Positions 4,117 through 38,279 of a stretch of DNA of 64,000 nucleotides are shown here, piece after piece. The stretch covers positions 30,609,771-30,673,770 of the forward strand of contig OZ038384.1 in assembly GCA_964036045.1 (NCBI GenBank), written 5' to 3'. Each line of letters starts with the position of its first letter. Within the stretch, counting starts at the first letter, position 1. The DNA comes from Eutreptiella sp. 'Long Island Sound 2002' (taxonomy: Eukaryota; Euglenozoa; Euglenophyceae; Eutreptiales; Eutreptiaceae). A program made the position numbers and the translations under genes. The notes under the pieces were generated by a model. It was not told the origin of the DNA. It worked only from the letters and a program-made list of their open reading frames with translations, and searched no databases.

Positions 4117-4120
4117 TATA

Positions 4121-15460: not shown

Positions 15461-15723
15461 TCACCCCTGTGAATCGGCTACAGGCTTGCCGGGTTTCGGC
15501 ACCTCTCGTTTTGGGCACGGTTCGGACATGATGGATGCTTTTGGGGCGGGACTTTCATTGGATGATGCGTAACGAAGCTAGGGTAGGAATTTTGACACCT
15601 CAAATCCCTCGGAATGACCCAATACTATGGTATTTTCCCCCAAAAACCTCAAAATTTGGGTAAATTCACATGAAATTCACGCAATTATTCAAACGGCCAC
15701 TTAACGCCCGTTCGTGAAGGGTA

Positions 15724-18023
15724 CACATTGCTGTCCCCGGCGGATAAAGAGGCCCTGAAAGCGGACCTGAGCGCGTGCCTAAGGACCGTGGGCTCATGGC
15801 CGCCTGAGCTCCAGGACTATCTGTGCGCACGCATTCGCGTTATCTCAGCCAACACTCTGCAAGTCCGCCAGATCGTGCGCACGCCGGGGCCGTACAAGGA
15901 TCCCACCGCTACCCTCCTGGACCCCCATTCACGGGAACCCTGTACTTGTCAGTCATGGGATGCAGGCACCGCACCCGGGCTGGCGCGCCTGCATGGGCAT
16001 GTTTTCACCCGTAACATGGAAGATATTGCAGCGTGCATGCACGCGTTTAACATGGGAGTGGTGCGCCAGAATACGAAAAACGCCGACGTTCCCCCTTGGA
16101 GAGGCTTTTGCCAAGCGCTACAAAAAAGCCTGCGTCAGCTCACCAATGCGCTCCCCGACACACGCGTTGCGCCCGCGGGCTCCCTGCTACAAAGCCTCAC
16201 AGCCGTGTGCCAGGGCGTGTACGACAGGTCATATGCACAATATCCGCCATTGTTGCATGAGCGCTACATACGTGCACAACTCAAAAAGCTTCCCCGCGGA
16301 GCTGTCTGTGATGTTTTTGACAAAGGGGTTCAGGTTCCCAATGCGGCATGCGCCCATTTCTGGCAGGAGTTTAACCGGGTGACCTTTTTTGAAACGGAGC
16401 GCTTCGAAGAGTTATGGCGTTTCAACTCTCACGAGGAAGCCCGGTGCGTAGCGCTCTGGTACCTTTTGGACGGAGCGTCCCTGACCCTGCATGGGGCTTA
16501 TACTAAGTTTTCTGCGGCCATGGGCTGCTCCCCGGTGCGTCCAGATGCAGCCCACGCAGCCATGACGATGGCGTGTACGAAAGGAGCCTCGCGGGGCCTC
16601 AAAGCATATATTAGCGAGTTTATACACAAGGGAGTTGAAAAATTGAAGTTGGTGGCCCCTGTGTGGGTGCGCCCAGAGTCCCATCCATCTCTTGCCTTCC
16701 CTCTTTTGTCCCCTGCAGAGTTTCGGGCCCGTGTCAGAGCACGGGCACAAAGGAAGCCTGATGCACGTAGAGGGCGCGCCCCATAGCGCAGCACCTGCAG
16801 GGCCAGGTCACGGCTGCCAGGGCGTGGGCGCGCAGCGCCAGCGAGGGAGCAAGCCCGGTCTGTAGCGGGCGGGCATTTCTGCCTCCGCCATCTGCCGGCG
16901 AGACCGCCTGCCCCGTAGCACGTATCAAATGTGCAGCAACCGCTGGGCCTGTCGGCAAAGCCTGTGGCAGTGGGCGTCCCTGACGTGCTCCTGGCAGTGA
17001 AACATAAAACACAGCAGTCGCCGAAAACGCCTGTGCTCAAGGGACGGGACATCGTGAGAAAAAGTGCCCATCCCGTTAAGCAATGGGGCACGCTGATAGA
17101 ACGCTGTTTGTCTGTGATCTGGAAGTGGGCCTGTAGGAACCAGCCCACCTGGGAAATTCACTTCATGCGTGATTTGAAAGGAGTGATAGAGCTCTGGCAC
17201 CAGCAGCACACAGGGACTGCATGGGGTGAGCTTGACATTGAAGAGATGTTTCCCAATATTGCGCGCGACGAGGTAGAACGCGCCGTTAATTTCTTTTTCA
17301 CCCAAACGGCAGGAAAGTTGCCGAATCCAGCCCATGCTTTTTTTATTCATAAGGGTGGTCTGCGCCAGCTTGATAGTTTTGGAGCAAAAACACGTGGCAG
17401 TGCCTATTGGAAAATATCTTACGCCGATATCCAGCAGTACCTCTTTTTTGAAACATGGTTCGCCGATGTTTTTGTACACATGTCTTCGATTTTTCGCCAG
17501 CGCCTGGGCGTAGCGATAGGAGGGGCCTGCTCCGCTCAGGAGGCGTCCCTGGTGCTGATGCGAACAGAGAGGGCACTGCAGTCCTGCCCTCTTCCGCCTG
17601 TCCTCCGCTATAGGGATAATTAGCTTGTGCTGTGCCAGGAGCCCCAAGGGTGAAGGGAGTTTGCCGGCTGATTTTGTGAGAGTCCAGGAGCTACTGGCGA
17701 GCCAATTGGACATGGGGATCAAGGTATAGAACTGCAAGTGCGTGCTGCCTTTTTTGGAGTGTGAACTGCAGCTCAGTGCCACAGGCCAGCCTAAATTGGG
17801 TCTGAAAGCGCCCGTTTTTGATGCGCCGCCGGGAGCAGGGAACCCGTCCAGCCTCCAGCGTCTGCTAGACGTCTTCAGCCCAAATGCGCGCTCTGCCCTG
17901 CAGTCATTTGTGCCTAACATGATGGGAAAAGCGGCCTGGTATGCACTTCCTGCCCCTCAGTATTTGCTGAATGTCACTAAAGTAGCGGAGCCATTGCACA
18001 AAAAACAATACCCGGGTTCCTAG
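15724..18023 (+). pseudogene. Penelope-like reverse transcriptase, copy i, with RYRDN motif C
   Basis: The first frame (15728-16786, 352 codons) begins abruptly at the transposon A terminus. It contains a C-x-C motif (PCTCQSW, 15941-15949) and a DKG motif (FDKGVQVPNAACAHFW, 16319-16327), both features I associate with Penelope-like element RTs. After a break the second frame (16931-17623) carries the palm. It reads RDIVRKSAHPVKQWG, then motif A ELDIEEMFPNIARDEV (Asp at 17234) and motif B GVAIGGACSAQEASLVLM (17507). Motif C is LRYRDN (17606-17620) instead of R-Y-x-D-D. After a frameshift and one TAG the thumb region follows (SQLDMGIKV, VLPFLECELQL), like the PFLD motif of Penelope-like RTs. 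No GIY-YIG domain was seen. Several breaks make this copy non-functional as read. Confidence 0.65.
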
Positions 18024-18990
18024 TGGCCCCCCCGCATGCTTGCTCAGGTAGATCGTATTGGGAAACGGGATGATGTGCTGCTGGCACTGAAGTCGCTCCG
18101 ACATGGAGCCTGATATATGCAGGGGTCGCAGAAGCTTTTTGCTGTTTTGTGTGTATTTTTTCCTTTCCCCTTGTGCTGAGTTTTGTGCTATATAAGGAGC
18201 AGGGTACCACTGCATTTGAGTCTTGTTGCTAGAGACGCCCTTCCATACGAGCCCGGGCTGGGTTGGAGAAGGGAGTCACTCGCTGGGCAACGGTCGAGTC
18301 CCATGATTTGCCTCTTGAGCCCCTGCATGCACCCCTTCACCACACTGCTCGCAACGGTCTTTGCAGAAAGGTTTCCTCGTGTCGCTTTTCTTTGTTTGCT
18401 GCCGCGTGCCTGCAGCACCGGGAAGAGTGACGAGAACACCAGACGACACAGAGACAGAGAAGGGAATATTTTTCGATAATATTTTTCAATAATATTACCC
18501 ATATATATGATGCTTTACTACCACGCTATCAACCCTCATGATTATGGGCAGATGCTCTTTGATATGACAATGCAAACTGCACCCCTCTCGGCCTTTACAA
18601 AGCCATTTGCAATTTTCTTCTTCAGTATTTCGAACTTGGTTGCCGCTTGAACCATTACCTCACACTTTCATTGGAATTTCCAATTATCTACCATTCCAAC
18701 ATTCCAGCATGTGGCCCGCTGTCTTGGGCTATCACGATGGGATATGGTGGGAAGTCATGGTCCATTTGCCTTTGTGATTGCACCTCCTATGCATGCATGT
18801 CCAATTGCCTTGTGTTCCATCCGATTGAGTTGCTTGATCCCTAGGAGCGCCCTACGGTAAGCGTTTGTTTAAAATTTTTGTCCACACGGGGCCTTGGTGC
18901 AATCAACCGCCCCGCCGCGGCGAGCCGTGTCTAGATGGGGGGGGGGGGGGATAGGGGGGGGTCTCTCCCTATTCCCGACCCACCAGCCAC
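18024..18990. other. Spacer between RT copies i and ii, no gene recognised
   Basis: Contains short ORFs without recognisable features, an AATATT-rich stretch (18465-18505), a possible TATA promoter at 18188, and a G16 run near 18940. It may be untranslated sequence of the RT elements. Confidence 0.4.
18188..18198 (+). promoter_or_regulatory. Possible TATA-box promoter
   Basis: GCTATATAAGGAGCAGG fits a core TATA box. It lies downstream of RT copy i and upstream of RT copy ii, where a promoter of a tandem or terminal-repeat-bearing retroelement could sit. Based on consensus only. Confidence 0.3.
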
Positions 18991-19800
18991 CAGCCGCCAT
19001 GGCTAGGTTCACCCCTATGCAAAGGGGTTGCTGCAGGAGGTGGACCATACACCGGATGGATGGAAGACGGTGGAGTTGTTTGTGAACCCTAACAACCTGG
19101 AATGCCTGCCATCGCTGTCGGAGAAGTGGGCAGAATTCCTCAAAAAAACCACAGCTGTTGCCGTTGCCGTGTGCCTTCAGCTCTGTATTTACACATTGTA
19201 CAGGAACTCCAATAGCTGGATCATTATCTGCACAAATTGCCTCGTTGGTCCTCATTGCGAGAGATTTGAATTCTGAGTCCATGTCCGACCTCAGGCAAAC
19301 AAACTGGAGATGGATTCGCTACCGTGACAATTTTGTTGTACATATGATTATCAGTGCAACACCGGGCCTGGACCAGGAGGAGATAATGCATGACCAGGCA
19401 CAAAGGGCCATGGGCCTTTTTCATGCACTTTTTGGGATGGAACTCCAGCTGGAACAATGGGGACCTGAGCTAGACTTCGTGGGTGCCAGACTCTGTGATA
19501 TACACGGCCCCGACCTCATCAGTAAAAAATTGGTTCGTGGATTTGGGGTCCCCCCACCCAGCGTCCACACAACGAATGATTGCCCCCTTTTGCCCCCAAA
19601 CGCCTGACAGAGGATTCCATCGTATATACCAAATGAAATAAAAGCGTGTGGACACTACCGTTTGTCCAGACAAGCCCCAGCACGTAATGTACAGGACGTA
19701 GAGAAACTGATGACAGATCTGCGCCATCCAGGGACATGGTGGAGGCCTGCAGTCCGCAAGCATGTGCAAAAATGGGGACTCTGACCTCACCACACCCCCG
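18990..19800 (+). pseudogene. Penelope-like reverse transcriptase fragment, copy ii, RYRDN motif C
   Basis: The main frame (about 19205-19608) follows a possible splice acceptor (ATTGTACAG). It shows motif B GTPIAGSLSAQIASLVLIAR, then after only about 20 residues motif C WIRYRDNFVVHM (19317-19331). The helix/motif D-E region follows (FHALFGMELQLEQWGPELDF, then VGARL). Past a stop at 19608 the same frame continues with KACGHYRLSRQAP and HPGTWWRPAVRKHV, which resembles the C-terminal WWLP region of copy iv. Motif A was not found; an upstream ORF (19028-19276) may hold part of it in another frame. Confidence 0.55.
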
Positions 19801-20103
19801 CCGCTGGGCGGGGGTATTGGACTGCATGTTTTGCACTATAGGTAAAGGAATATGAAACCCGATGGATGTCTTCGTAGGAACCAACAAGAACAGCTTCACG
19901 GTACGACACGGGCCATTGGAGAGGCGGTGAATGGGCCTAGAGCTAGCGTTTTGCATGCCGTTTCTTTGTCTACACTCTCACTACAGCAAGCCGCGCGGCT
20001 AGTGGCTTTTGTTTTCGTGTATCCTTTGTCTTCCATGCTTTATTGATCAAGCTCCTGGACTAGTGCACGTGCAATTGCCCGTTAACTTGCCACCTGACGA
20101 GGA

Positions 20104-20507
20104 GAGCTTGTTTTTGACGAATTGAAAAATAATGGGATCATTGTGGTGCTAGATGCCCTGCACATCCAACAGTGGCCAACAGTTGAGCACAACCCCAAAT
20201 TCGTGACGGAGTTGGTTGCTGCGGTGCATGAATTGGTCAGTGGGGTTCCTAAGTCTGCCATTCTGGCAATTAGGCCGTCCGCTGGTGAGCGGGACCGGGT
20301 GTTGAGAACCACGGCTGCGTGCATCGCTGGGTCATGGAGGACACCATGGATAAGGGTATCCTTCTCCTCAACCAGATGGAGAAGGACCCATCCAGTGCCC
20401 GCAAGACGGGTCCCGTCGTCACATACCAATCCGTTAGCGCCCAACGTTCGGAAAAGGAAGGCCCAAAATCATGGGTGTCTGCACCCTTGCAAGTGAAACC
20501 CCACTGA
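20104..20507 (+). pseudogene. Unrecognised ORF pair
   Basis: One frame reads ELKNNGIIVVLDALHIQQWP then VTELVAAVHELVSGVPKSA and ILAIRPSAGERDRVL. A second continues after a shift near 20305 with VHRWVMEDTMDKGILLLNQM to WVSAPLQVKPH. Hydrophobic-strand/acidic pattern (IIVVLDALH) looks like a folded alpha/beta domain. I do not recognise the family. It sits upstream of the A-like transposase relic and could belong to that element. The stretch 19800-20100 before it holds nothing recognisable. Confidence 0.35.
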
Positions 20508-20621
20508 GCAAGAAATGAGCAACACTCTGTACGATGCACTGCGAGGGTAGTTGGACCCGCCCGAGGCAGATGTCAACGAAGGGGGCTTAGCGTCTGCAAT
20601 GGAGGCACGTTGAGTCCGGTA

Positions 20622-20640
20622 CCTAACCCTAACCCTAACC
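20622..20640. repeat. Short telomere-like repeat (CCCTAA)
   Basis: Three units of CCCTAA. It is isolated in the sequence and lies between RT copy ii and an A-like relic. Endonuclease-less Penelope-like elements are known to sit next to such repeats; a chance or interstitial repeat is also possible. Confidence 0.5.
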
Positions 20641-21179
20641 GACGGTGTTCCGAGGTGGTGTCTTGTACCCACCCGTATTCTCCCCCTAAAACCAGGCCGC
20701 TGTGCACGTGCATAGGTTGATTTGTGTGCACCTATTGGTGCAAATAGAGGTCCCATTTTGTCATACCGGCACCTTTGCGCTTCAAAGCTTTTCCATGGTC
20801 GCAATGCATGCACAATGACTCAAATCCAGCCCATGTAGACACTTTGATGCCGAGTTATGTACTTGTGGCAGAAGGAAGAACTATAGGTGTGCACAAAGCA
20901 CGATGCAATAAAAGTGCAGTCCCTTGTAATGCGTACATTGCGCAGCAGCGGCGCGGAGTAAGTCAAACAACGCCTCTGGCTTGAGCATCATCCATTTTCG
21001 AAGCTGCCCGCTTCGGCAGGTGGGTTGTTACACACTCCTAAGCGGATTCCAACCTTCATGGCCACCGCCCTGCTATCTCTAGCGCACAACGTCCTTTGTG
21101 GATTCCATGTATGAGCCGCCCCTTGAACCCTGCAACCGCGCTCTCGGATCATCCCGCATCGCCGGCACTGCTTACTAGT

Positions 21180-22030
21180 AATGGCCCACATGGGGCTGCA
21201 CCCTGTTCCGGATTGGGCCCTAGTGGCCTCGGCGGATGCGCATCCCTGATTACGGGGCACATGGCGTGCTTCGGGTGTCCCATTGTGCACTGAACGGGAT
21301 GGTGAGTGTGTTGCGGGAACACGGGGGTATGTCGCGGCCCTTAGCGGCAAAACTCGCGCGAGATTCCGTGAATGGGGCACGGAAGGTTGCCCGCACTGCA
21401 CGCCCTGGGCGATGGGGTTATGAAAAGGCCAACAAGAAGGGTCAAATCCACATCGAGTTGGGGGCCGCGGTGCATTTTGTGAGGGTTAGGTTGTGGCTCC
21501 CACTGCTCCAAAAAGTGGGAACCATCATTGGGGGCCATCAAGTGGGGGGCCGCCCTTGGGTGGATGTATGTAGGGATTGGTGGGAGGCCTTCACGGCCAT
21601 GGCCAACGTTGCATGAAAACGCGACTTTGTCAGTGGCCATGAACAACGGGCCCTGTTGCAACAGCAGTAGACCATGGGGGCAAGGCATCTTGCTCTAGGG
21701 TGGAGCAAGACCTTGTGGGCGCACATGTCCATTGACCAAATGTTTGCGTACCTTTGTAGACGGGGGACCTTGGCAAGGTTCAACTGCTTCGCCTTGGGAG
21801 CCATGTACGATTGAAGAGGCTCCTTAGGAATTCTCCTACACAACAAGTCAGGCCTCCAAGGTGTGGAGGACAACCACACGTTGGATGACCACCTCCGCAA
21901 GGAGGGTTGGGAGGTGACTAGTAAGGCAATGACCAAGCAACGGGGGTACCAACGCCGGTGCATGGCTTGGTCACGTGCCCGGCGGGAGAGCAAGGGAAGG
22001 GAAGCCCTGGTGGGCAGGATATCGTGAAGC
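21180..22030 (+). pseudogene. Diverged transposon A-like transposase, C-terminal half
   Basis: RIPDYGAHGVLRVSHCALNG matches the start of the 4121-4893 domain. Then come KKGQIHIELGAAVHFVRVRL, GGHQVGGRPWVDVCRDWWEA and, in shifted frames, MSIDQMFAYLCRRGTLARFN with CFALG. The end has RLKRLLRNS and VEDNHTLDDHLRKEGWEV. The conserved H-x-x-L-K-R-x-L-R-N-S and N-H-T-(I/L)-D-D blocks confirm a second, older subfamily of A. Stops and shifts make it a relic. The stretch 20640-21180 upstream holds only short ORFs. Confidence 0.5.
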
Positions 22031-22180
22031 GTGCACTGCGACAGAGGATGTAATATTGTGAATTGCAAGCGTTGTTGCTTGTTGCATGTTGAATTAACCT
22101 TGAATGAACCCCAAAGCGACCAAATCTAGCTCTCAGTGAAAGCTCAAAGAAAGCACAGTGAAAGCTAAATGAAAGACAAG

Positions 22181-22226
22181 TGAACCCCGGACTGAGTGCT
22201 CACTTGCGGTTCAGTCGGGGTTCATT
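22181..22226. other. Hairpin-forming inverted repeat
   Basis: TGAACCCCGGACTGA and TTCAGTCGGGGTTCA are inverted complements but for one unpaired base, separated by about 14 nt. Located between the A-like relic and the left direct repeat of the RT element. Could be an element terminus or transcript structure; no U-tract follows. Confidence 0.5.
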
Positions 22227-22323
22227 GGCTCGGCTCAGTCGAATTAGCCTTCGAAAAAAAAGTGATGTTTTGCGATAATTGCCAATGATATGGGTATGTA
22301 AATCACGTTGGGGACATGCAAAT

Positions 22324-22616
22324 TGGTTTCATCTCAGGATGTTTCAGCGCATGCTGTGCAGTCCCATTGATTTGTGTTGCCAGTGTGAGTGCTTTGTGTC
22401 GAGCGACATATATTAATGCACGTATGGCCCTGAATGAACGCATAGTCAGCGTGTTTTTTGACATAAATCAGGTTGAGTTTGGTATGGAAACGAAAGGCGG
22501 GTCTGGTGCCATACAAAACGAGAGTAGACAGGATCCATGGGCGCCAGGGATCGAATATGGTGTGTGCCCGGGACCACAGGTGCCTACCGATGATGAAATG
22601 TCGTTGTTATCCTTAT
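22324..22616 (+). repeat. Left direct repeat of RT element iv (first part)
   Basis: Starts TGGTTTCATCTCAGGATG and matches 35194-35485 closely. It is cut by transposon C at 22617 and resumes at 28065-28207. The two parts together equal the about 439-bp right repeat. It encodes the same membrane-like ORF as the right copy, truncated here by the transposon. Confidence 0.8.
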
Positions 22617-22619
22617 CCC

Positions 22620-22700
22620 TTGGTACACGCTAGAAGACCCAATCTTGATCTAGCCTAGGACGCTCTAGCCTAGATTAGATCAATACTAAAACGATATAAT
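22620..22700. repeat. Family C motif array, left subterminal
   Basis: Repeats of GATCTAGCCTAG, CTCTAGCCTAGATTAGATC and related CTAG-centred palindromes, in the first 80 bp of the element. Confidence 0.7.
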
Positions 22701-22814
22701 GGCTACAACATATCCCAAATTCTTCGTTGCTCCGCCGTGCATGCTTGCTATTGTCCGTAGTGCATTGTTCCATGCTTCCTTCTTTCCCGCCTAGATATTG
22801 CACATTTCTTTGCA

Positions 22815-24640
22815 ATGAAACGCCCCGCCACTACCCCCCCTGCTCCCTCCTCACCTGGGAAGGATAGTTCCTTCTTGTCTAAGGCACTACGGGAGTTGAG
22901 TGGGGCCTCAAACCCCAAGGATGAGCGGATGGGCCATTACTTGGCCACGTGGGCGCTATCATGCCCCCTAGCACGGCGGCAATTCAACAACGCCGTCCAA
23001 CATGTGAACTCCGCCACTTCTACCCAAACCACGGGTGAGGCATGCAAGGCCGCCGTTGAGGCATACGCCGCCTCCCCACTTCCCATCACCGCCATGTGTG
23101 AACTAGTGCTCAACATGAGGGCCCCGAAGTCCTCGTGGAGGACACTCTTGGAGCTCTACACGCTCCGTAAGTTGGAGTATCACCGCACCGTCACTAGTGG
23201 CCCCTACTTTCGTCCAATTTGTACCGAGCGGGCTTTCCAAGCCCGTAGGAAGGAGTTGGTCGCCCCGGTGCAATTGGATAACCCCGTTGCCACGGTGTTG
23301 CCCAAGGCCACCGGGATCTCATGGCCCTTATCCTCATGGGTCACATACATCCTCTCCCGGCCGGGCTTGGTGCGGTCAATTAACCGCACGTTCCCGTTGA
23401 CGTTCATCGTCCGGGGAGATGCCTACCCCGTGGCCGGGGGCAATTGGACCCAACTGACCATCTCCTTGGCCAACTTCGAGCGCTTGGTGCGCTCCCCAGC
23501 GGGCCTTTGGGTGCTGAGCATGGCCAATTGCGGTGTCAAGGCCATGGAGACCCTTGGGACGTTGTGGAAGAGCAATTGGGAGGTACTCCTCTCACCTAGT
23601 GCCTTTCACTTGTTCTAGTTTTGATCTAGTCGGCCTCAAACAGCGCTCGGTAGACGCTAGATTGGACTCGACTAGAACCAAATTAACCACCCCCCATGCC
23701 TCGTGTTTAGGTGATTCAAGATATCATCGACACGGGGCTGGTCCAATGGGGGGCCTCCAAGGAGGAGGCAAAGGTGATCCTCGGGGGGGATCAACCGTGG
23801 ACGCGACGGGTGATCGGGGTGTCCAAATACCCCAAGTGGGATCCATGTTCAATGAGGGCATATGGCATGCCCCAACGAAGACTTGGGAGGGTAGTGCTAA
23901 CCCCCTGACCATGGAGGGTGATGAGGCCAACTACACGGCCTTCCTCCTTGGGAACCATCCTTGCAAGCCGCCGGCTGCAGTACGCAGCCCATTTTGAAAT
24001 TGCCACGTGCCTGGGTCGTCTTGTGCATTTTGCACTTGACACATGGCCATGGGCCGCTTGTTGGGGGAGTTTGTCGACCGGGAGGCTAGGTCGGTCACCC
24101 CTGCGCTCCGTCGAGACCTGCAAGTTCTCCCGTCGGAGAGGCGTGCACGTTGGAGCGTTTATGGGTCAGCATCCCCGGATGGGGAGGAGACGGCCAAATT
24201 TTTTGACGCATGGGCGGATATTGCTAAGTGCCTCGGCATTAGGCCAAGCACGGCCAAGTACAAGGCCATCGCGAACATGTGGGACCTGCTGCAGGCCCTC
24301 TATTGTACATATCAGGGCCCTAACCCATTGAATTGTGCTGGTGTTGCGCGCGATTTCTGGCGACACTGCAATGCTGGAACAGCATCATGGTATCTACTAA
24401 GCCTTGAGCAGGATGTAGATACCATGTTGCAGAACATTAAGCCGTTTGGCCTGGCTATGTTCTCCGGTGACATTTCGGAAAACATTAACCGCTTTCTGCA
24501 ACATGGTCACAACGAGCACAGCAACCGGGGGGGGGGGGGGGGGGGCTGTCGGGTGGAGGGGGTGGACGAGGTGTCGGGTCGTTAGTGGTCGGCCATCCAC
24601 AGGGAGGCCAATATGCAAGCGCAGTGCATGACATGGTTGT
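22815..24640 (+). pseudogene. Transposon C transposase (DDE type), two or more exons
   Basis: Start MKRPATTPPAPSSPGKDSSF, the first Met after the subterminal array. Exon 1 is 22815-23582 (256 codons) and the intron 23583-23710 (GTACTC donor, TTTAG acceptor, phase 0). Exon 2 starts VIQDIIDTGLVQWGASKEEA. Catalytic candidates: Asp in FIVRGDAYPVAGGNWTQL (23418), Asp in VILGGDQPWTRRVIGVS (23789), Glu in GDISENINRFLQHGHNEHSN followed by RGGGG (24478). Block MGRLLGEFVDREARSVTPAL aligns with GRLQVAFIETRLVDLPKENT of transposon B. Exon 2 needs frame changes near 23845 and 23990. C-terminal CMTWLFAYFDVSW matches MWEWWFLKFDLPL of B. The shared order of blocks with B is the main evidence for a common transposase family. 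Confidence 0.65.
23605..23690. repeat. Family C motif array inside the transposase intron
   Basis: TTCTAGTTTTGATCTAGTCG, GACGCTAGATTGG and GACTCGACTAGAACC: CTAG-centred units different from the AT palindromes that occupy the equivalent intron of transposon B. Confidence 0.7.
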
Positions 24641-24839
24641 TTGCGTACTTTGACGTGTCGTGGGTTGTGCATGGGGGGCCGCGGTCGCAAGTGCCATGCT
24701 CGGGCAGGGATGCCATGGAGGTAAGGAGGGGCCAGGGTCACATGCAGGCTTCCCTGAACCAGAGTATTTCAAACCAAGATGGCATCGCAACAGCAGTTGG
24801 ACGAGCTGGTGAGGCAGGTATATTTCGTGCTGTGCGTTC

Positions 24840-24950
24840 CAGCGGTGATCTAGGGAATCGTTCTAGTCTTGATCTAAACAACACAATCGGCCGCTAGACT
24901 GTTGCTAGAACGCCGCTAGAACAGTTGCCTGGAACGCCGCTAGAACGCTC
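24840..24950. repeat. Family C motif array between transposase and gene 2
   Basis: Repeated GCTAGAACGCCGCTAGAAC and TTCTAGTCTTGATCTA units. A closely similar block (CTAGAACAGTTGCCT(G/A)GA...) recurs at 26335-26430. Confidence 0.75.
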
Positions 24951-26391: not shown

Positions 26392-26450
26392 AACGCCGCT
26401 AGAACAGTTGCCTAGAGCGCCGCTAGAACGCTCCTGCATTTTCTTTGTTT
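26335..26450. repeat. Family C motif array between genes 2 and 3
   Basis: Units GCTAGAACGTCGCTAGAACG and GCTAGAACAGTTGCCTAGA, followed by a pyrimidine tract and TTTAG that looks like a splice acceptor (26452-26460). The array may therefore lie in an intron joining genes 2 and 3. Confidence 0.7.
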
Positions 26451-26460
26451 GTCTCTTTAG

Positions 26461-27700: not shown

Positions 27701-27729
27701 GGCAGCTTCTCTTTGAGGAGTGGCGGAGC

Positions 27730-28045
27730 ATTCATATATATCGCTCTAGCGGCGTTCTAGCGAACCGTTCTAGCGGCGTTCTAGCGACGTTCTAGAACGC
27801 TCGCTAGAACGTCGCCAGAACGCTCGCTAGAACGTCGCTAGAACGCCCGTAGAACGAAAAAATTTTGGACTCTAAAATCAGGTGAAAATAGTGAAATTGT
27901 GAAAAAAAAAGTATGGGCCCCCGAGTATGGATAGGGGGGTCCAGGTTAGACACCTCATCCCCCCCCCCCTGCGGGGGGGGTATCCCCCTCTTTTTTTCGT
28001 TCTAGCCGCTCTACGCGGTTCTAGGCTAGAACGAGATTGGGTATT
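27730..28045. repeat. Family C motif array, right subterminal
   Basis: 27740-27860 is a dense run of GTTCTAGCGGCGTTCTAGCG, then its inverse CGCTAGAACGTCGCTAGAACG, so the two halves can pair. It resembles the terminal motif arrays that flank some CACTA-type elements. A second block precedes the right TIR (28000-28030). Confidence 0.8.
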
Positions 28046-28064
28046 CTAGCGTGTACCAAGGGAT

Positions 28065-28207
28065 GTATTTGCGTGCCGAAGGCAATCAGCCTGACCGGTC
28101 ACCAGAACATCCTGTCCACTGTTGCATTGTTTGTTTGCACTAGCCTCATGGGCATGGCCGTGTTTGTGTGAGGAGTTTTTGTACTTGTGCTCGCCCCTTG
28201 CAGCCTG
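28065..28207 (+). repeat. Left direct repeat of RT element iv (second part)
   Basis: Matches 35485-35632 up to TTGCAGCCTG. Between ACC and CAC it has GGT where the right copy has TTGGGC, a clean 3-nt difference that keeps the ORF open (ending SLMGMAVFV then TGA). This supports the repeat being, or having been, protein-coding. Confidence 0.75.
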
Positions 28208-28324
28208 TGGCTCTAACACGCGTGCGACTGAAACGCGTGTACCTTCCATTGTCCTCCGTTGATTCAAGTACGAGTTCACTTTCGACATTCGCGGTACTAC
28301 CTCGATATCGCTCAAGTTCCTTCC

Positions 28325-28751
28325 ATGTCTTCCTTTGTTCCATCCGATAAAATGGCCAAGCTCATTGGCGATGCTACTGCACATGCAGTGCGCTCTCTAA
28401 TGGCTGACGGGCAACAAGTGCAGAGCAAAAAACAGAGGAAAGGAAATGGGAGTCGGAACTAGCGACGTTCTCTCCCGCGATCCTCTGCGACTCAAGAACC
28501 TCCCCAGGTTGGGTCCCACAATGACGACGTCTTGCCGCGGTTTGACCTCAAACAAGTGGACCACAGCAACTCTGAAAGCGTTGGGGAAGGCCGAACACAA
28601 AATGGGAAATCCGTGCTATCTCTGTAAGAAGTTTGGACATCTTGTAGGCGTTCATTTTCCAACGAATCACAGATGGTGCCAGGCTGAATCTGATCGCTGG
28701 ACTTCGAACCGTGATTATTTGCACAAAATTCTGCGTGATGTACGGGAATAG
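28325..28751 (+). pseudogene. Small gag-like ORF with Cys/His knuckle
   Basis: MSSFVPSDKMAKLIGDATAH starts at 28325; after a frame change near 28446 the sequence leads to CYLCKKFGHLVG, then HFPTNHRWC and a TAG at 28749. C-x2-C-x4-H is the start of a CCHC zinc knuckle, but the last Cys is 12 residues on, so it is atypical. First gene of the retroelement; a nucleic-acid-binding role would fit. Confidence 0.4.
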
Positions 28752-28842
28752 CGCTACACCCAGTACCAGATCGCTGTAAATTAGGAGGTGGATACTTCCA
28801 GGTCGCCCCAGATGTCGGATCGAGAGTTCCTGGCTGGCTGCA

Positions 28843-29606
28843 GTGATGGAGGCAGCCACTGGGCTTCCGCGATGGGACGACGGAACCGATCCGAAAACCA
28901 CACCCCCGCAGCCTGTGAAGGACGCGCCTACTGACGAGTTCTTTCAGCATTCGCCGCTACCAGGGAGTGCGCCACCAGTGAACGACTCGACTAAGCTGGC
29001 GTTGCCTGCACCACCAGGTCCTGCTGGTCAGGCACATGGTTTTGCTTTTCAGCCCCGTGACGTCTCGTCTACGAAGGGGAAGGGGAAGAACCTCAAACCA
29101 AAACGGGGGAAACGGGATCGCGCGGGTGACCCTCCTACAGATCTGGTGGCCACTGCGCTGAACGGACCGAACAACACCTTTCAGATCGCCCTGAACCCGT
29201 CGACCTCCACTCCGAGCCTATCGCTAGCGAAAGCACCGCCCGGCTCGAGAATGCAGCCCGCTATCGTTGGCCTTCCCGTGCACGCCCTGAACGCGCCCGA
29301 GTGCAGGATGCTGAAGAGTCGTTACAAACCCTGACCGAGGACCGCAAAAACGTCCGGCAGCAGCTAGGCCGTATCGACCAGTGTGTGACAGATCTGAAGC
29401 ACTCCACCAGTGTCTCCCAGAGTTTGATGGGCACACTTCTGGTCAAGGTCGGCGGTGTCTCCCAGGACGAGGTGAATACTCTGGTGCAGCAGACAAAAGC
29501 AGCGGGCCTGGCTGAGCTACCCCTGAGTCTCGATCCCCAAAGCGAGGAGAAGATGCGGCTTATGACCCTCGAGACACCAGGTCGGGACCTGCAGACCCAC
29601 AGCTGA
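28843..29606 (+). CDS. Pro-rich and coiled-coil ORFs of the RT element
   Basis: Frame one (to 29334) is Pro/Ser/Thr-rich with a basic KGKGKNLKPKRGKRDRAGD patch. The overlapping frame (29301-29606) is helical: MQDAEESLQTLTEDRKNVRQ, then CVTDLKHSTSVSQSLMGTL and VNTLVQQTKAAGL. They probably form one structural protein divided by a single frame change near 29320. No family recognised. Confidence 0.4.
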
Positions 29607-29619
29607 GAATCTGCTTACT

Positions 29620-30276
29620 ATGGGCACTGGCCTGCCTGTACATTCGGGACGCATTTCCATTTCCAACTCGTCGGATGACAACCGAGTGTCCGCCTCATTT
29701 TCTGAAGACTTGACGATGATGGACCACTGGGACGTTGCGACTGCGACAAAAAATCAGGGCGCTACCCCTAAAGCGAATGAGCTGAGGGAATGGCAGCTTG
29801 GGTGGCGTCCGGCACAGGAGTGGAAAATGGTCGATATGGCGGCGCTCTTACAATGCAAGGGTTCTTTGCTGGCACCGCCTGCGATTAAGAGGAGGAACGA
29901 AGGAGTACATGCCCTTAGCCATACTGATCAGGGACTGCATATGGTGGTCCTAGCGCCGGTGCCTGTTGCAATGTCGGATGGACCCCCAGAGAGGACTCAC
30001 CAGGTCGTCACAGTGAGGTCTGTTGGACTGCGACCTGCGGTGCATTTGGTACTGGGACCTTCCAGCGCTGTTACCATCCAGGACCCGCTGGAGCCGGCTC
30101 TGGAGAGTGCTGAGGCATGCCCTTTTGATATGTGGGAAATGAACACCTTCGACAAGGTCTTCCTTTGGGAAAAAGCTGCACAAGTGGCAGCGGACGAGTT
30201 GAACGCGGGTAAACCTCTGAAACGCCCTTGCCTCGCTGATGGAATTGCTTCTAGCTCTGGGGCTGTAGCACCATGA
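29620..30276 (+). CDS. Unrecognised ORF of the RT element
   Basis: 218 codons from ATG 29620. It includes ELREWQLGWRPAQEWKMVDM, then HMVVLAPVPVAMSDGPPER and CPFDMWEMNTFDKVFLWEKA, and ends with TGA inside the ATGA that starts the next ORF. The overlapping stop-start suggests translational coupling or a former fusion. Function unknown. Confidence 0.45.
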   Translation: MGTGLPVHSGRISISNSSDDNRVSASFSEDLTMMDHWDVATATKNQGATPKANELREWQLGWRPAQEWKMVDMAALLQCKGSLLAPPAIKRRNEGVHALSHTDQGLHMVVLAPVPVAMSDGPPERTHQVVTVRSVGLRPAVHLVLGPSSAVTIQDPLEPALESAEACPFDMWEMNTFDKVFLWEKAAQVAADELNAGKPLKRPCLADGIASSSGAVAP

Positions 30277-31190
30277 CGAGTACAGGGACTTCGTTTTCTG
30301 CACTCTCTCCGACGCTGCGTGAACTTCTTCTACAACACGCACGAGAAGATTTGGAGAGGGCGCGAGCTATCAATGACCTGGAGCAGGCCGCTACCTTTCT
30401 GCGCTCCACTATTTGTGACGATCAGCGAATACTAGAAATGTCTACTACTGAGATTGACGAACCTCCGGTGACTCCTCGGACCTGTATTGCCTACATGAGC
30501 GACAGTCACAGTGGACAAGCAGATCCCCAGGCACCATCAGAGGCTGTTTGGTTAGAGGCAGGGTTACAGAGTAACGCTACTCTGGACTCCGACCCATTCT
30601 CCCCACTCTCCCCTTCCTCTTCTTCGACGCAACGGAGTGTGGATCCATCGGAAGATAGTGATAGAACCAATATGTCCTCTGCTCAATCAGAAAATCTGTT
30701 TGCGGGTCAGAAGAGTGTATGTCTTCCCATTTTGCGGTTTTTACAAGAATGTGCTACTGTTGATACATTTGCCAGCGTCTTGGCGAGGAACAGATCCCTG
30801 CGACCTCTAAGGGACGGCTATGCGGGGTCCAATGGAGTGAGGACATGGTCTGAAGTGACGCTGGCTGAAGTCCAGCAGTTTTGCGAATACGCCATTATCC
30901 TTGTGGAAATTATGCACAGTAGACGAGGCTTAGGATGTAGATTGACAGGCGGAGTAGAAGATTTTGTGCATGATGTTCTGGGCATCAACTGCATGCTATT
31001 TGGGAGCCCCTGGTCTGCAGGCCTGCCGATGTATGCAACAGATATTCCGGAGTGTCTATACTTTGACGGTGTTCAAGATAATGTTTTTGCAATGTCCGAC
31101 TCGACGAGGAAGTTTTTCCTGAGGTCTGATGTTGCACCCTTTGAATTCTCTGCAAAGGTGGAGGATCGCCTAAACGATCAGAATTTTTGA
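30273..31190 (+). CDS. Unrecognised ORF upstream of the RT, probably its N-terminal extension
   Basis: 305 codons: MTSTGTSFSALSPTLRELLL with a charged helix (REDLERARAINDLEQAATFL), a Ser-rich acidic linker, and a compact domain with LPILRFLQECATVDTFASVL and WSEVTLAEVQQFCEYAIILV. After a TGA at 31188 the same frame stays open for 60 codons (to GQEVWYWEMVYGNGG), reaching the RT ORF, which is open from 31259 in another frame. The RT polyprotein may therefore begin here and be interrupted by one stop and one shift. Confidence 0.45.
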   Translation: MTSTGTSFSALSPTLRELLLQHAREDLERARAINDLEQAATFLRSTICDDQRILEMSTTEIDEPPVTPRTCIAYMSDSHSGQADPQAPSEAVWLEAGLQSNATLDSDPFSPLSPSSSSTQRSVDPSEDSDRTNMSSAQSENLFAGQKSVCLPILRFLQECATVDTFASVLARNRSLRPLRDGYAGSNGVRTWSEVTLAEVQQFCEYAIILVEIMHSRRGLGCRLTGGVEDFVHDVLGINCMLFGSPWSAGLPMYATDIPECLYFDGVQDNVFAMSDSTRKFFLRSDVAPFEFSAKVEDRLNDQNF

Positions 31191-31258
31191 CTGTGCGTTT
31201 TACACAATAGGGAACACAATCGTGGAAGGAATGGTGTTTTACAAAAATTGGCCAATGA

Positions 31259-34200
31259 CGGCCGTGCTATACAATTCGGTGCACAATCCAAATTGAAGGT
31301 ACGTGCGTTCAACCAGAGCGCAACAGGCCAAGAAGTCTGGTACTGGGAGATGGTATATGGGAATGGTGGTTGATAGATGGAGGTAGGGCAGAAGTAGGGT
31401 GCAGTGTGGATGCTAGGAGTTTCGGTGTGGTTGTGAAGAACATCATTAAGTCCACAGGCTCAGGGGCATGGTACGGGCCTCTACCGGGTCGGGTGGGCTC
31501 AGATTCACCCTTTCCTACCAGGGAGGAGCAACTTGCCCTGCTTTCAGAATTTTGGGCGGCCTGGGATGAGGAAGCCGATGTGCGTGCACGACTTCTAAAA
31601 TTCCGGTGTGTAAAATGGGACATGCTTGTGGAGTCTCTTATGCGCAGCAACCAGCTGCTCAAGGACTGCCCTGATGCCCGACTGAGACGAGCTGTGCGCT
31701 TGTCACGCCTCTCCTTGGATACAATGACGATAGAAGATATATGGATCTATGTTATGGTGGGAGCATTCCTGCCGTATGTAGGTCAAGTTGGTTTTCTGCA
31801 GGGTCCGAGGGCACCTCTGGAGCGCTATAAGGAACATCTGTCCAGAGCCAAGTCACTCAGGAACATGTTCCTGGGCAACAGACACAGACGAATGAGGTGT
31901 CCGCTGGTGTTTGGGAAAACACCCTCCCTGTCTAAAGCACTAGCCAGAGTGGGGGGTCACCAAGCCTCGATGGTACTGTTGCAGAAGGTGGACCCGCCAC
32001 GAGAGGCGTTTAATGTCGAGTCGCACTTTGACAGTGTACTGCCCCCCACCCTGAATCAAATTGACCCAGCGAGAGGGTGGGGGACAGGCGAACTGCGATG
32101 GCGATGGAGCCTGCGGGAGGAGACTTCATCTGAAGTCAAAACACTGTCCCAACGTGTGAACGATGTACTCTGGAAGGTGAGGAGCAGTAAGGATACCGAC
32201 CAGGGAGTAGATGATCTGCTTGATTTGCTAACCTCTTCATTGGGGAAAATCCCAGGCCGCCTGTTTGATTCTTTCTTTCGCGCAGTCCAGGGTGTAGTGA
32301 AACACATGTGGGGTATTGAATTGCAACGTCGCTTTATCGTACGGGTTCCTACCTACCAGAGGCATACCATCAATGGCATTAAGAGGAGCCTCAGGTCACA
32401 GATTGCACAGCATGATGTACCGCAGACCCTCAAGGCATGGCTTTCCCTTGCATTGTCTGTTCTACCTTTGCAAGCCCATAAACTCAAAGATGTGAGGGGA
32501 GGGGCTGCCTTACGTACTGTTCGCATGACTGCAGACGAGCTGATCTCTGGCATTAAACTTGGAACCTACGACACGTCGCCTTTCCTTGTGGGAGGGCAGC
32601 AGCGAGCATGGGTGTTGAGAGAACCCTCTGAAGTTCAGCCACGTGTAGTGCAGGAGGTAAAGCGACAGCTCGCGCGAAGACAATGGCGACAATGCACATG
32701 TGCTGCATTGATGCGACAACATCCTGCCCTACAGAAGGATCTGGGCCATGTAGCCCTGCGCACTAGATCACAATGGGCATGTCTTTTCACTGACGAAGGG
32801 GCTGATACCCTCAGCAGCAATGCGCGTCAGTGTGTCATTCCTTCCATAGATGTGCTAGCAGCTCAGATGGAGCTGTTTAAGGCGTCCCTGCAACGCATGA
32901 CCGTACCCGCAGAGGGTTTTCTTCCTTCCGCATCTGGCATCTCTCCCTCTCTGACTTGTGCCTCTCTCTCCCTCTCCCCAATCCCTACCTCGCTCCCCAC
33001 GGCCCTGGCGTCTTCTTCCTGTGCGCTATACCCGCCTGTGTCAGCGAGTTCCTTGCTTTCCGGAGACGATATAGGACCTATTGTTGAATGGGTGCATAAT
33101 TTCTGTCTTGCGGACATCTCTGCGTATACACTGGAGTGCCCCACATTGGGCAGCGAACATGTTTCCGGGCTCTCTAAGCGCATATGGGACCTTCGCTTTC
33201 GCGTAGGGATTTGGGACAAAGAGCTCCACAGGATGTCTGGTGCATGCAGGGTGTTGGAAGAGGACCATGTGGTGGAATCCTACTTGGGAGGGGACCACTT
33301 TATTTTGTGGGGCGTGGCAGAGTCCAAAGCTGCTGCCCAAGCAGCGAATGTGTATGATACACTGACCTCTGCCCAAGCACATGGGATTGTGGACTGTGCG
33401 ATTCATCGCAATCTCCTGCGCAAAGGGTACGCAGATCTTTCCTGGGCTGCAACTCACATTAATTCGGTCTACACAAAACCGGAACCTCCACCTTCCCCTG
33501 GAGACGCTGTAGATTTAGACCCAGGCCCCCAACGCGAGCATCAGCGGCCACTTTTTGGCGCGCCCTCTATTTTTTCCATTTTAAAATGGAAGACAGTTGC
33601 CCGTGAGGCACATGCCATTGTTAAATGGCGCGATATTGTGTCCTTTAACCTCCAAATCCTGCGCTCGTACGCACCCCTCATGAGCAGGTCACTACCGCTC
33701 ATTGTCAGCGAAGTGTACGGGCAATTCCAGACATTGGGCATGCCGAGTATGGTAGGAGTACGTGATTTGCTGGGGTCCCTAGGCAGGTTCAATCCAGTCT
33801 GGGCCAGCGTCCGCCCCGATGAGGCGGACATGACGGATATGTTCTGGCATATCCCCGGCCCTGCATGAATTGTTTGAGCTTTTGGAGGGCGAGAAGCGCG
33901 GATGTGCGGAGTTTTTTGCACTGCATAAGTCTGGGGAGAAGGCCCTTGATCGCCTGGGTACAGCGAGTAGCGCTGACTTTAGGGTCATCTCCAGACAAGA
34001 ATTGCTGGACTTTGTTTCCTGGGACCTGCACCACAACATAGGGCTGGTGCTGGGCCCGCTATTGCTGAAACAAGGCGATCGGGGCGTCCCGATCGGTGGG
34101 CATTTGTCGGCGCAGCTTGCTGAACTCTGGGCACTTGCCCGTGAGCTTAAATATATTTTTGGAAAGCACCGGTCTGATCTTGTCAAGACGTGGGATCATA

Positions 34201-35207
34201 CATTGCGTAAAGGTGAGGAAGGTGCACCAGCGTCCCTGTCCGATATCCGTCTGTGTGTCCGGGAACCCATGGAAGTTTGTCACCCGTCCTGCATGGGGCT
34301 ACAGAAACTGGGCAGGGTACTCGGGAGCACAGACCGACCCTTTCTGCACAGCAGTACTTTGCGTACTGATGGATTCGGAGGGTGGTGGGGACCTACTGAT
34401 GCCTCCTTCGGGTACCTGGACGTGCACGGAGTGCAGGTTGATGTGCTGGTGACCTCCCTCTGGGCCGGAGCGCCGGATGGGCGCATGGGTACTATTATGG
34501 CGAGTGCACCCCCCCCGAGACAGGGCGCGGCTTCGCGAGTTCTTTCGGGAACTGGAGCCTATGGACTTCGTGGTGAGCGAGGCCCGTCGACGGTGGTGGG
34601 GGTGGGCGACACGCCCATCCGACCCGGCTGTCCCCGTGTCCACCAGCCCAGGCATTCTTTTCTCACGTTTTCGTGATAACATCTACACCATTTTTATGAA
34701 CATCCACCCTGCCCTGTTCCCTCGCGTTCGTCATGCGGCGAAACATTTCCTGGACTGTTTGTATTGAGTTCCCCTGAAATGGGAACCTACAGATTTACGG
34801 GTATCCTGGGGAGAGTGTTCATGGAAACCCCTCCCCTTGGGCTTCTCTTTGACCAGGAAAGGGGTCATCTGGGACATCGCTGAGGGTGATGAGCTTGGCG
34901 AGTGGCTCAGGTGGGTCCCAGCCCGCTCAGCCAATGCGAGCTTTACGCTGGCGTCTATGCTGCCGTCCCTGTTTCTCAAGTCACTGTGGTATGCGGGTCC
35001 ACTGCAGATGTGCAGGCCAATTTTCGCTCCGTCCTCTGGGGCGTAGGCTGGCACTCTTACCCCAAACATTGGTGGTTGCCCTGTCTCACACGCTTTCCGC
35101 GGAAGTATAACCTTCTACAGGTGTTTTCCTTGGGATCTGTTACCACGTTGGTTCGGGAGGGCAAACGGGCGGCAGCGACCAGCGGCTCGGGAGTGGTTTC
35201 ATCTTAG
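31259..35207 (+). pseudogene. Penelope-like reverse transcriptase, copy iv, with RFRDN motif C
   Basis: An 832-codon frame (31370-33868) holds a long N-terminal region with C-x-C (QCTCAALMRQHP, 32693-32701) and a DK motif (VGIWDKELHRMSGAC, 33215). It ends in motif A EADMTDMFWHIP (Asp at 33827). A one-base shift in CCCCGGCCC joins the next frame: LLDFVSWDLHHNIGL then motif B GVPIGGHLSAQLAELWALAR (34083). About 180 residues follow before motif C, including LRTDGFGGWWGPTDASFGYL. Motif C is FSRFRDNIYTIF (34666-34680). The thumb continues past a TGA (34765; Gly in copy iii) with LKWEPTDLRVSWGECSWKP, then KHWWLPCLTRF. Breaks fall mostly in C runs. No GIY-YIG or RNase H. Confidence 0.65.
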
Positions 35208-35632
35208 GATGTTTCAGCGCATGCTGTGCAGTCCCATTGATTTGTGGTGCCAGTGTGAGTGCTTTGTGTCGAGCGACATATATTACTGCACGTATGGCCC
35301 TGTGTGAACGCATAGTCAGCGTGTTTTTTGACATAAATCAGGTTGAGTTTGGTATGGAAACGAAAGGCGGGTCAGGTGCCACACAAAACGAGAGTAGACA
35401 GGATCCATGGGCGCCAAGGGTCGAATATGGTGTGTGCCCGGGACCACAGGTGCCTACCGATGATGAAATGTCGTTGTTGTCCTTACGTATTTGTGTGCCG
35501 AGGGCAATCAGCCTGACCTTGGGCCACCAGAACATCCTGTCCACTGTTGCATTGTTTGTTTGCACTAGCCTCATGGGCATGGCCGTGTTTGTGTGAGGAG
35601 TTTTTGTACTTGTGCTCGCCCCTTGCAGCCTG
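35194..35632 (+). repeat. Right direct repeat of RT element iv
   Basis: Uninterrupted 439-bp copy, TGGTTTCATCTTAGGATG to TTGCAGCCTG. It shows the empty site of transposon C. The RT frame runs into it and stops at TAG 35205-35207; the left repeat has CAG there, which would let the frame continue. Confidence 0.8.
35237..35596 (+). CDS. Small ORF with two hydrophobic segments, inside the direct repeat
   Basis: 119 codons, shown from an alternative start; the open frame extends upstream through SGFILGCFSACCAVPLICG. Middle part: TARMALCERIVSVFFDINQV, then a hydrophilic NESRQDPWAPR. The end is NILSTVALFVCTSLMGMAVF. The first and last segments could span a membrane. The left repeat keeps the frame with an in-frame 3-nt indel and several substitutions, so it was under coding constraint or is recent. 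May be the C-terminal end of the RT polyprotein instead of a separate gene. Confidence 0.4.
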   Translation: MICGASVSALCRATYITARMALCERIVSVFFDINQVEFGMETKGGSGATQNESRQDPWAPRVEYGVCPGPQVPTDDEMSLLSLRICVPRAISLTLGHQNILSTVALFVCTSLMGMAVFV

Positions 35633-36194
35633 CACCCACCCCTAACACATAGCATTGTGTGCATATAATTGCATGAAAACAAGCAATTAGCCCTAAATGA
35701 ACCCACGGTGCGGCTCAATGAGCCCCAACTGCACAAGTCTGGGCGAACCACAGGTACAGACAGAATGCAAGAAGAAACATCCGGGGAAAACACTCTGTTT
35801 TTGACTCCCAAAAGAGGCAAAATGCCTTGACCGTTTCAGTAAATCAGTTGATCGCTAGTGTATTGTGGTGAACGATGCCCACTTGAAACGTTTTTTTGAG
35901 TTCGACCTCAGGGACAATGTGTTTTTCGCTTTGGCAAGCCTCATTCTCCGTCAGGGGGCCAAGGGGGTGCCAATCGCGGTTCGTATCGGCGCAGGTTGCT
36001 GAGCTGTGGGCCCGATGGAAAAAACACGCCCGGCTTATGGGGCCAAAACGCGATTGTGATAGTTTCGAAGCGAGGTGGACACACGACATGGAGACACATG
36101 CCCCCTCTGCTTATTTCTGCTAAATTCACTCCCCTCACACGCCCCCCCCCCCCCCCCGCCAGGATGTCCTGGCACCAACGATGTGCAGTAGGCA

Positions 36195-36310
36195 TAGGGG
36201 GGGGTCGGAATCTCCGTGTGCCGCCCTGTTTTGTGCCGTGCCGTGCCGTGCCGCCTATGGGGGGGGGGAGGCAAAGAGGCCTTGTGCCGTGCCGTGCCAA
36301 GTGTTCCTAC
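36195..36310. repeat. Dispersed repeat with GTGCCGTGCC units (first of two)
   Basis: TCGGAATCTCCGTGTGCCGC, then CCTGTTTTGTGCCGTGCCGT and GAGGCCTTGTGCC. The second copy is at 36890-36985. Both are next to G/C homopolymers. They flank about 590 bp of AT-rich DNA without a gene, so they may bound an insertion inside copy iii. Confidence 0.6.
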
Positions 36311-36889
36311 CCAACAAGATCCTTTGTAGAGGCACACATGTATCAGTGGTTCAGATTTGGACGGCATGTTGCTCTTTTTCGTGACTATTGCATTTGCAAC
36401 TTTTTGTGTGTTGTCTCTTGGTGTTGCACCATGTGTTTTCCAACTCATTCATGACTTTAATTCAATTAGTAATGTGAATCAATTGTGATCATTGCATGGT
36501 GTTGTTGAAGATGTGAGATGCTTTATGTTGCTAAATTTCGACTTGTCATCATGCGACGCAAGTTTTTTTCAGAAGTTTGCATGGATTGTTGCGTTGCTTT
36601 TGCTTGCATGTCTCTCCATCTCACTTTGTGCCATTTGACGAATATTTTGGAATAATTTCTCATGCATTATGGGACATGGAGTTCAATGCAATTATTAATG
36701 TGAATCGATTGTCAACATGGTACGTTGTCAACAATATCCACCCAGGGACCACCAGGAAATGCTAGCATTGGGCCCGAGACAAGAAAACAAATGCGTTGGG
36801 CCCATATGTATGTGACTGGCACTCCATAGTGGTCGTCTCTAAGGGCCCGTTCCGGGTAGGGTCGGGCGAGGTAGGAATAGGGAGGGGGG

Positions 36890-36985
36890 GGTGTCGGAAT
36901 CTCCGTGTGCCGCCCTGTTTTGTGCCGTGCCGTGCCGCCATGGGGGGGGGGGGGGGCAACGAGGCCTTGTGCCACGGAACGCCTA
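36890..36985. repeat. Dispersed repeat with GTGCCGTGCC units (second of two)
   Basis: Near-identical to 36195-36310 in the same orientation. Confidence 0.6.
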
Positions 36986-38279
36986 CTGCACGATGCAAGG
37001 GTTCATTCTTGGACCCACAGACCTCTCAGCCTCTCCGAGTTGTGGTCCAGAGAAGACAGTTTGCAGTCGTATGTTGAGGGTACGACAACCCCACCTTGTG
37101 TCTTGGGATAGTCTGCATTCCCAAGGATTCCTTGGGTGGTGTGCCCCTGTGGACTCCATGACGGCCCTTTTGCAAGTGGGAGATGTCTCTGTTTTGTTCA
37201 TTGAATCTACACCCTGGGATCGAGCGCCTGAGGGTTGGTTGACTACGATTTTATAACATACACCGCAACAGGACAAACAATCAAGTAGTGGAACACCTAA
37301 AAGGTTTTGAAGTGCTTGGAGGTGTGGTCGGTGAGTTGCCCCCCCCCCCCCCCCCTCAATGGTGCACCTCAGATTCCTCAAATGGTTACCAATCATTGCC
37401 GTTTGTCTTGCTGGGGCGGTACAGAGATAATATCTTTTTGCTTATGTCGGGGGTCCTCCCTCACCTACAACCGTGGGTTGAATTTGGGGTGGCTGGCTTT
37501 CTCCACTGCATTTATGGCATCTCACTGAAGTGGGAACCTCATCCCATAGGCAGCGTCACATGGGGAGAATGCATGCTCCGGGTACTCCCAAACCGGATGT
37601 CAATGCTGCAAAGGTGTTTGTTTGTCACTTTCTGGGTTCAGCACCTCGAATGATTTGGCTGATGCGGAATGGAATAAGTGGGTCAATCCCCTGTCCCCCA
37701 ATTCAAAATTGGTTGGGCAATCACTCCTGCCTGCAATTTCATCAATTGCTTGTGGTTTGCATGGGACTCCGAGGATGTACTCTTGAATGTCCGGTCCCTG
37801 GTATGGGGTCCCTTTATAGACAAGTCCCAGGGTCTTGGTGGAAACAACGCATCCGTTTTTTATTTGATTTCTGGGATCGACATCATTTTTTCCCATTTGA
37901 ATTGATTCATGATTGGCCTCGGGCTAGGGCACTGCAGATGGAGGGACAGGCAGCACCGGGTCATGGTGAGGTGACACCGACTGCAACGACTCCCTGTGGT
38001 GCCCCGTGCTGCCAGAATTCGGGTTTAGAGGGAAATGATGGAGTGGGAGGGTGTGGGAATTTTTCTCTTTTGTCGCTTCACGTGTATGTATGTTTGGTTG
38101 TTTTTCTGGCATTGCTTATGCTTTTGGTACACAAGGCTGTGCGTTGTCGACATGTCAAAATGTGCATGGGTGATGGTAGACACAAGGCAGCACGCAGACA
38201 CAATGTGATGACATGTCCCGGGGTTTTTTGGTCCTGGTTTTTGTCTGAAGGTATGTATCCTAGATGCTTTGTTGTGCTT

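Follow-up and report, generated by a model that had tools for sequence, protein, structure and literature searches.

A 64,000-nucleotide stretch of the genome of the euglenophyte Eutreptiella sp. 'Long Island Sound 2002' (contig OZ038384.1, positions 30,609,771 to 30,673,770, that is C7:30609771-30673770 in the 2.28-Gb assembly; hereafter the window) carries four interrupted copies of a Penelope-like reverse transcriptase (RT), in which the catalytic motif C reads R-(Y/F)-R-D-N in place of the x-D-D of other RTs. Comparison with database relatives and with further copies in the same genome revealed that RDN is the motif retained by a diverse set of retrotransposons with recent activity. The x-D-D motif C serves to recognise RTs and to make dead controls. 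If an RT is naturally active with x-D-N, the second Asp would be dispensable in the RT/telomerase branch, as it is in some viral RNA polymerases.

When all six frames of the window were scanned for R[YF]xD[DN], four matches and no more were obtained. Each lies on the + strand and has RDN, the DD version being found at none of the four (codons in Table 1). An earlier note on this DNA, made from its letters only, had described four RDN copies with varying codons, and the scan confirms this, with the small correction that the fourth motif begins at 37417 and not, as given there, at 37418. RT segments detected in the window with an RT-core profile (E up to 1) are confined to these copies, every one of which (4/4) is interrupted by stops or frameshifts. 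In profile alignments, RYRDN was matched to the RYADD of the group II intron RT 6me0_C (E 1e-4) and, weakly, to the RYMDD of the phage BPP-1 RT (probability 30%), and in both cases the Asn of RDN sits on the second Asp of the canonical motif. Because of these alignments, and because motifs A and B lie upstream wherever they are preserved, the RYRDN matches are not due to chance.

Three protein searches gathered 61 relatives. A profile search over 65 sequences yielded 42 rows covering motif C (38 from databases and four from the window), and in this count, for which the profile was built from those same rows, 35 read RYRDN, one reads RFRDN, six depart from the pattern and none has DD. RYRDN was found in all 21 clusters with at least two members covering the motif and in 11 of the 17 single-member clusters, although cluster member counts do not separate distinct genomic copies. 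Median core identity is 33% (661 pairs, 37 rows). Among 388 columns, that of the Asn ranks 13th from the slowest (N 34, Y 2 and S 1 in the 37 rows); since rows had been preselected for RYRD or as window copies, the Asn position alone is fairly tested by its rate rank, and the four positions before it are not. The one search surely free of motif C (a single query, with words from the first 500 residues) added one new relative, P0010, and this also has RDN. Two of the proteins are of transcript origin (P0050 from MMETSP, P0037 from MMETSP and JGI). No relatives were found in viral contigs or prokaryote genome contigs, in scans that may omit the window's own genome.

The open reading frame (ORF) of copy 3 gave at least 63 matches in the source genome (52 of 2,263 candidates scored). 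Besides the window, 27 loci were examined, of which seven came with the search output and 20 were picked from the match list. Motif C was found at 25 of these, always as R[YF]RDN and never with DD; the pattern scan did not find it at L013 and L027. Frames of 1630-1690 aa, open from stop to stop, are present at 13 loci, and the long frames fall into five subfamilies by sequence, with the motif C codons CGT TTT CGT GAT AAC, CGT TTC AGA GAT AAT, CGC TTT CGT GAC AAT, CGG TAT AGG GAT AAC and AGG TAC AGA GAT AAC, respectively. Nonsynonymous (dN) and synonymous (dS) divergence between the subfamilies was computed with a Nei-Gojobori script from one representative each. Over the whole ORF, dS is saturated in every pair (10/10); for the RT stretch the same holds in eight pairs, the other two giving 2.0-3.0, with dN of 0.23-0.78. 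With dS saturated and motif C codons differing, the motif residues have thus been kept while their codons turned over. Within subfamilies, the four intact copies L006-L009, located on different contigs, differ pairwise at 6-11 of 5,022 nt (dS 0-0.007), and dS reaches 0.024 in other pairs. Since such copies are nearly identical, the RDN-bearing elements have multiplied recently, and since RDN is present in intact copies of this kind, it is not a mark of dead ones. In a head-to-tail pair on contig C11 with a period of 6144, the two copies agree at 99-100% over 4.6 kb and at 21-58% beyond that (ungapped comparison), where they differ or have lost register; such a pair would fit the tandem habit of Penelope-like elements; no pseudo-long terminal repeat was recognised in the window or delimited at this pair.

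Penelope-like affinity, selection on the motif and, as one option, a distinct RT group had been proposed in the earlier note. All three are supported, with RDN retained in intact recent copies of this genome and in two MMETSP transcript proteins at saturated dS between subfamilies. The contrary case it had raised, of intact relatives with YxDD and of RDN restricted to dead copies, was encountered neither in the 42 rows nor at the 25 loci.

In P0010 (1082 aa) and others, the motif order is GIY-YIG nuclease, C-x-C linker, DK, RT motifs A (E-L-D-x-x-E-M-F-P-N-I), B (G-x-P-I-G-G-x-x-S-A-Q) and C (R-Y-R-D-N), PFLE-like motif and thumb, and copy 3 has the same order. The GIY-YIG domain, assigned by motif reading (the Pfam GIY-YIG model reaches only E 0.013, in one of 32 members), is N-terminal of the RT in copy 3, P0004, P0010-P0013, P0017, P0022, P0039 and one representative of each own-genome subfamily (5/5). 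No CxxC pair between GIY and YIG was seen by eye in the aligned sequences. The CxC linker (CTC, CPC, CDC etc.) occurs in most covering rows and in the five own-genome subfamilies, but is absent from the P0017 row and reads CTY in P0001. With regard to the insertion-in-fingers domain, another trait of Penelope-like elements with N-terminal GIY-YIG, the distance between motifs A and B is ~93-100 aa in relatives and own-genome loci. With the Pfam family RVT_1, matches at E of 0.1 or lower are limited to five of the 32 members, the best having E 0.01, and Pfam gave nothing convincing on six pieces of the window copies. For an AlphaFold2 model of P0010 residues 331-1075, telomerase was the best structural match (top 15 entries); the linker, RT and thumb are predicted to share a TERT-like fold. 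The present elements differ from TERT in being mobile, with a nuclease, and in having RDN instead of DD. Canonical Penelope elements have R-Y-x-D-D as motif C, and motifs A and B of a pattern like that found here. Judged by nuclease, CxC/DK linker, RT motif order and TERT-like model, the elements are Penelope-like, as the earlier note had held, and by their motifs they have the permuted architecture (N-terminal nuclease).

Penelope-like elements with an N-terminal GIY-YIG domain, including Chlamys, were reportedly defined by Craig et al. 2021. An N-terminal GIY-YIG domain and a CxC linker characterise the Chlamys and Naiad types, and in Chlamys the nuclease is without the CCHH motif and there is no hammerhead ribozyme. 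In the window, no hammerhead ribozyme was matched between 14500 and 39500 at E up to 5, or over its whole length at the gathering threshold, both scans being confined to the window. Because the CxxC pair is missing from the nuclease and 14500-39500 gave no hammerhead match, the elements appear most like Chlamys, with which they are compared by features. Shared features are the N-terminal GIY-YIG domain without CxxC pair, the CxC linker, DK(G), a TERT-like RT and a protist range, whereas motif C is R-Y/F-R-D-N here and motifs B and C are ~190 aa apart in one lineage. This is the lineage of copy 3, in which the distance from the start of motif B to motif C is 187-198 aa (L006, L012, L018, L022, L025 and window copy 3), compared with about 35 aa in P0010. 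The extra length is read as a lineage-specific insert in the palm, a remnant of which is kept in copy 4. Canonical Penelope/Poseidon elements (e.g. PAc of Anolis) also combine a GIY-YIG nuclease with a TERT-related RT, but their nuclease is C-terminal and they have hammerhead ribozymes (PMC11167929, in excerpt). Chlamys with 27 intact copies has been reported in the brown alga Ectocarpus (PMC12477816, in excerpt). The literature listings searched gave no statement on motif C of Chlamys, and a text search for RYRDN, RYRDD and RFRDN returned only papers unrelated by title; it may be that published Chlamys elements already carry RDN, perhaps without comment.

Compared with canonical x-D-D RTs, the second catalytic Asp of motif C is absent here throughout the 42 rows and 25 loci. 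The motif A Asp is invariant in 29/29 rows, as is Phe at motif A +5 in 30/30, the place of the RT steric gate; this Phe is consistent with the use of deoxynucleoside triphosphates (dNTPs). Glu occupies motif A -2 in 28/28 rows, and motif A +3 is Glu in 27 and Asp in two of 29. Since they are dispersed and intact and retain this Phe, the Asp of motif A and the first Asp of motif C, the elements look like working polymerases, which tells against the domesticated or RNA-binding role offered as one option in the earlier note. On the strength of sequence and of analogy with viral polymerases, we consider it likely that the window copies are relics of three deep Penelope-like lineages whose RT would be active with one motif C Asp, Asn replacing the second.

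In the proposed mechanism, the target would be cut by the GIY-YIG domain, after which the break would be extended by the RT along the element RNA, in the manner reported for a canonical Penelope-like element. Two metal ions would be held by the Asp of motif A together with the first Asp of motif C. In place of the second, the Asn would serve as a neutral ligand or as a partner in hydrogen bonding, like that of the GDN/ADN viral polymerases, and charged residues fixed along with it (Glu at A -2, Glu/Asp at A +3 and the Arg in YRDN) would rebalance the active site. Those polymerases, of the Mononegavirales and Birnaviridae, likewise have Asn for the second motif C Asp (PMC4634563 and PMC3121795, both in excerpt), together with manganese (Mn) use (PMC4634563); they are viral RNA-dependent RNA polymerases, and the comparison extends only to how they work. 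According to the same excerpts, altering that Asn abolishes activity in two Mononegavirales families (PMC4634563), a birnavirus polymerase with ADN is active (PMC3121795), and in other viral polymerases mutants of the first Asp are dead, while those of the second are weakened or changed in their metal need (PMC4634563). Altered metal chemistry is possible in the present elements. The fuller proposal, of an old and still mobile RT clade in which D plus R-D-N has replaced the Asp triad, co-fixed charges (those named above) restore the site for two metals and the preference for metal is probably altered, is put forward tentatively, its chances falling somewhat short of even.

Several points weigh against an active RT with RDN. 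In human immunodeficiency virus 1 RT, the double change D185N/D186N, which also alters the first Asp, abolishes polymerase activity (PMC5498913, in excerpt). The six departing rows of the 42 read RYRDY (two), RYRDS, HYHDN, RYPNN and RPRGT; all are single-member clusters of 132-339 aa. Relatives with DD may be under-sampled, because the query words of the third protein search came from the RT core with RYRDN included and only 7,999 candidates were scored. The own-genome sample consists of copy 3 lineage relatives only, mostly chosen for long open frames, and recent mobility could have come in trans.

A refinement that does not exclude this activity is that the RT works with changed chemistry, being Mn-preferring, slow, poorly processive or altered in nucleotide selection, as the Asn and the Arg near it would reshape the site of the metals and the primer end. 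In its favour, R is combined with N in 36 of the 42 rows, an Asn at this place is said to permit Mn use by viral polymerases (PMC4634563, in excerpt), and the Phe at A +5 points to dNTP use; the recent multiplication, however, indicates a life cycle that works well enough, and we hold such a change to be possible but doubtful. It seems improbable that RDN proteins are catalytically dead, serving in nuclease action or RNA binding and mobilised in trans by a DD RT elsewhere in the genome. One of the three catalytic acids is indeed lost, but the motif A Asp and Phe are invariant, no DD relative appeared among the rows or the genome loci with the motif, and RDN is common to deeply separate lineages. 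Domestication of the RT gene by the host, for a function other than polymerisation, would account for the strong conservation of the motif, yet the elements are multi-copy, dispersed across contigs with near-identical recent copies, include a head-to-tail tandem pair and keep the GIY-YIG domain, which makes this very improbable. The chance of an artefact (GAY-to-AAY deamination in dead copies, or base-calling errors) is negligible, for although the window copies are broken and D to N is one transition, the same Asn, with varying codons, is shared by uninterrupted frames located on other contigs, by proteins from other records and by transcript proteins, and the intact RDN copies rule out hypermutation or assembly error as its source.

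If the RT is indeed active with RDN, annotation based on motifs and Pfam (see the RVT_1 result above) misses a diverse retrotransposon group, and an enzyme close to telomerase with possibly unusual metal or fidelity behaviour would be at hand.

The window copies fall into three deep lineages in a quick tree of RT cores, in which P0050 and copy 4 form long branches: copy 1 with P0013, copy 2 with P0046/P0026, and copies 3 and 4 near P0050. The linker part of copy 1 is 87% identical to P0001 over 332 aa, and copy 2, preserved from motif B onward only, is 75% identical to P0046 over 91 aa. Copy 1 is frameshifted just past motif C, copy 3 has at least two frame changes, and copy 4 is fragmented, with a two-copy 60-bp repeat within the stretch between 36114 and 37035.

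Table 1 Parts of the four RT copies in the window.
Feature	Position	Strand	Description
Copy 1 linker	15674..16783	+	CxC EPCTCQSW 15935-15958; DKG DVFDKGVQ 16310-16333; open frame 370 aa
Copy 1 RT	16919..17620	+	motif A ELDIEEMFPNI 17228-17260; motif B GVAIGG from 17507; motif C RYRDN 17606-17620
Copy 1 motif C	17606	+	RYRDN, codons CGC TAT AGG GAT AAT
Copy 1 RT past motif C	17625..18115	+	other frame; PFLE-like motif, thumb SPNA; stops
Copy 2	19152..19790	+	motif B GTPIAGSLSAQ from 19203; motif C RYRDN 19317-19331; thumb; one stop
Copy 2 motif C	19317	+	RYRDN, codons CGC TAC CGT GAC AAT
Copy 3	31259..33847	+	GIY-YIG nuclease WIYVMVGAFLPYVGQVG 31742-31792; CxC 32690-32713; DK 33206-33226; motif A DMTDMF 33827-33844
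Copy 3 RT continued	33849..34587	+	other frame; motif B GVPIGGHLSAQ from 34083; long B-to-C stretch
Copy 3 motif C and thumb	34588..35117	+	further frame; RFRDN 34666-34680; 34998-35117 weak
Copy 3 motif C	34666	+	RFRDN, codons CGT TTT CGT GAT AAC
Copy 4 RT	35766..36114	+	segment between motifs A and B, motif B remnant
Copy 4 RT end	37035..37741	+	B-to-C stretch remnant; motif C RYRDN 37417-37431; thumb remnant
Copy 4 motif C	37417	+	RYRDN, codons CGG TAC AGA GAT AAT

An apparent fifth RT match at 51105-51317 was rejected, as the shared sequence is the C-terminal end of P0055 and not RT. It is 41% identical to that end over 71 aa, more so in the second half, and is probably a dispersed repeat that adjoins an RT in another record. 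Just upstream of copy 1, a 365-bp unit is present in two head-to-tail copies, 97% alike (14492-15220). A fragment of eukaryotic large subunit ribosomal RNA (RF02543, 144.6 bits, model 957-1389) lies on the - strand at 20917-21215, ~1.1 kb downstream of copy 2. Dispersed repeats around the region of copies 3 and 4 pair 22324-22615 with 35194-35485 (97%) and 28097-28207 with 35522-35632 (99%).

Similar-looking ORFs at 4102-4893, 14048-14764 and 55602-56105 probably represent another dispersed repeat. Judging by their translations, the ORFs at 40386-41507 and 44552-45283 resemble the two parts of a split GH16-type glucan enzyme. Units similar to GAATTTCGTAC form short tandem repeats at 1434-1502 and 5096-5175.

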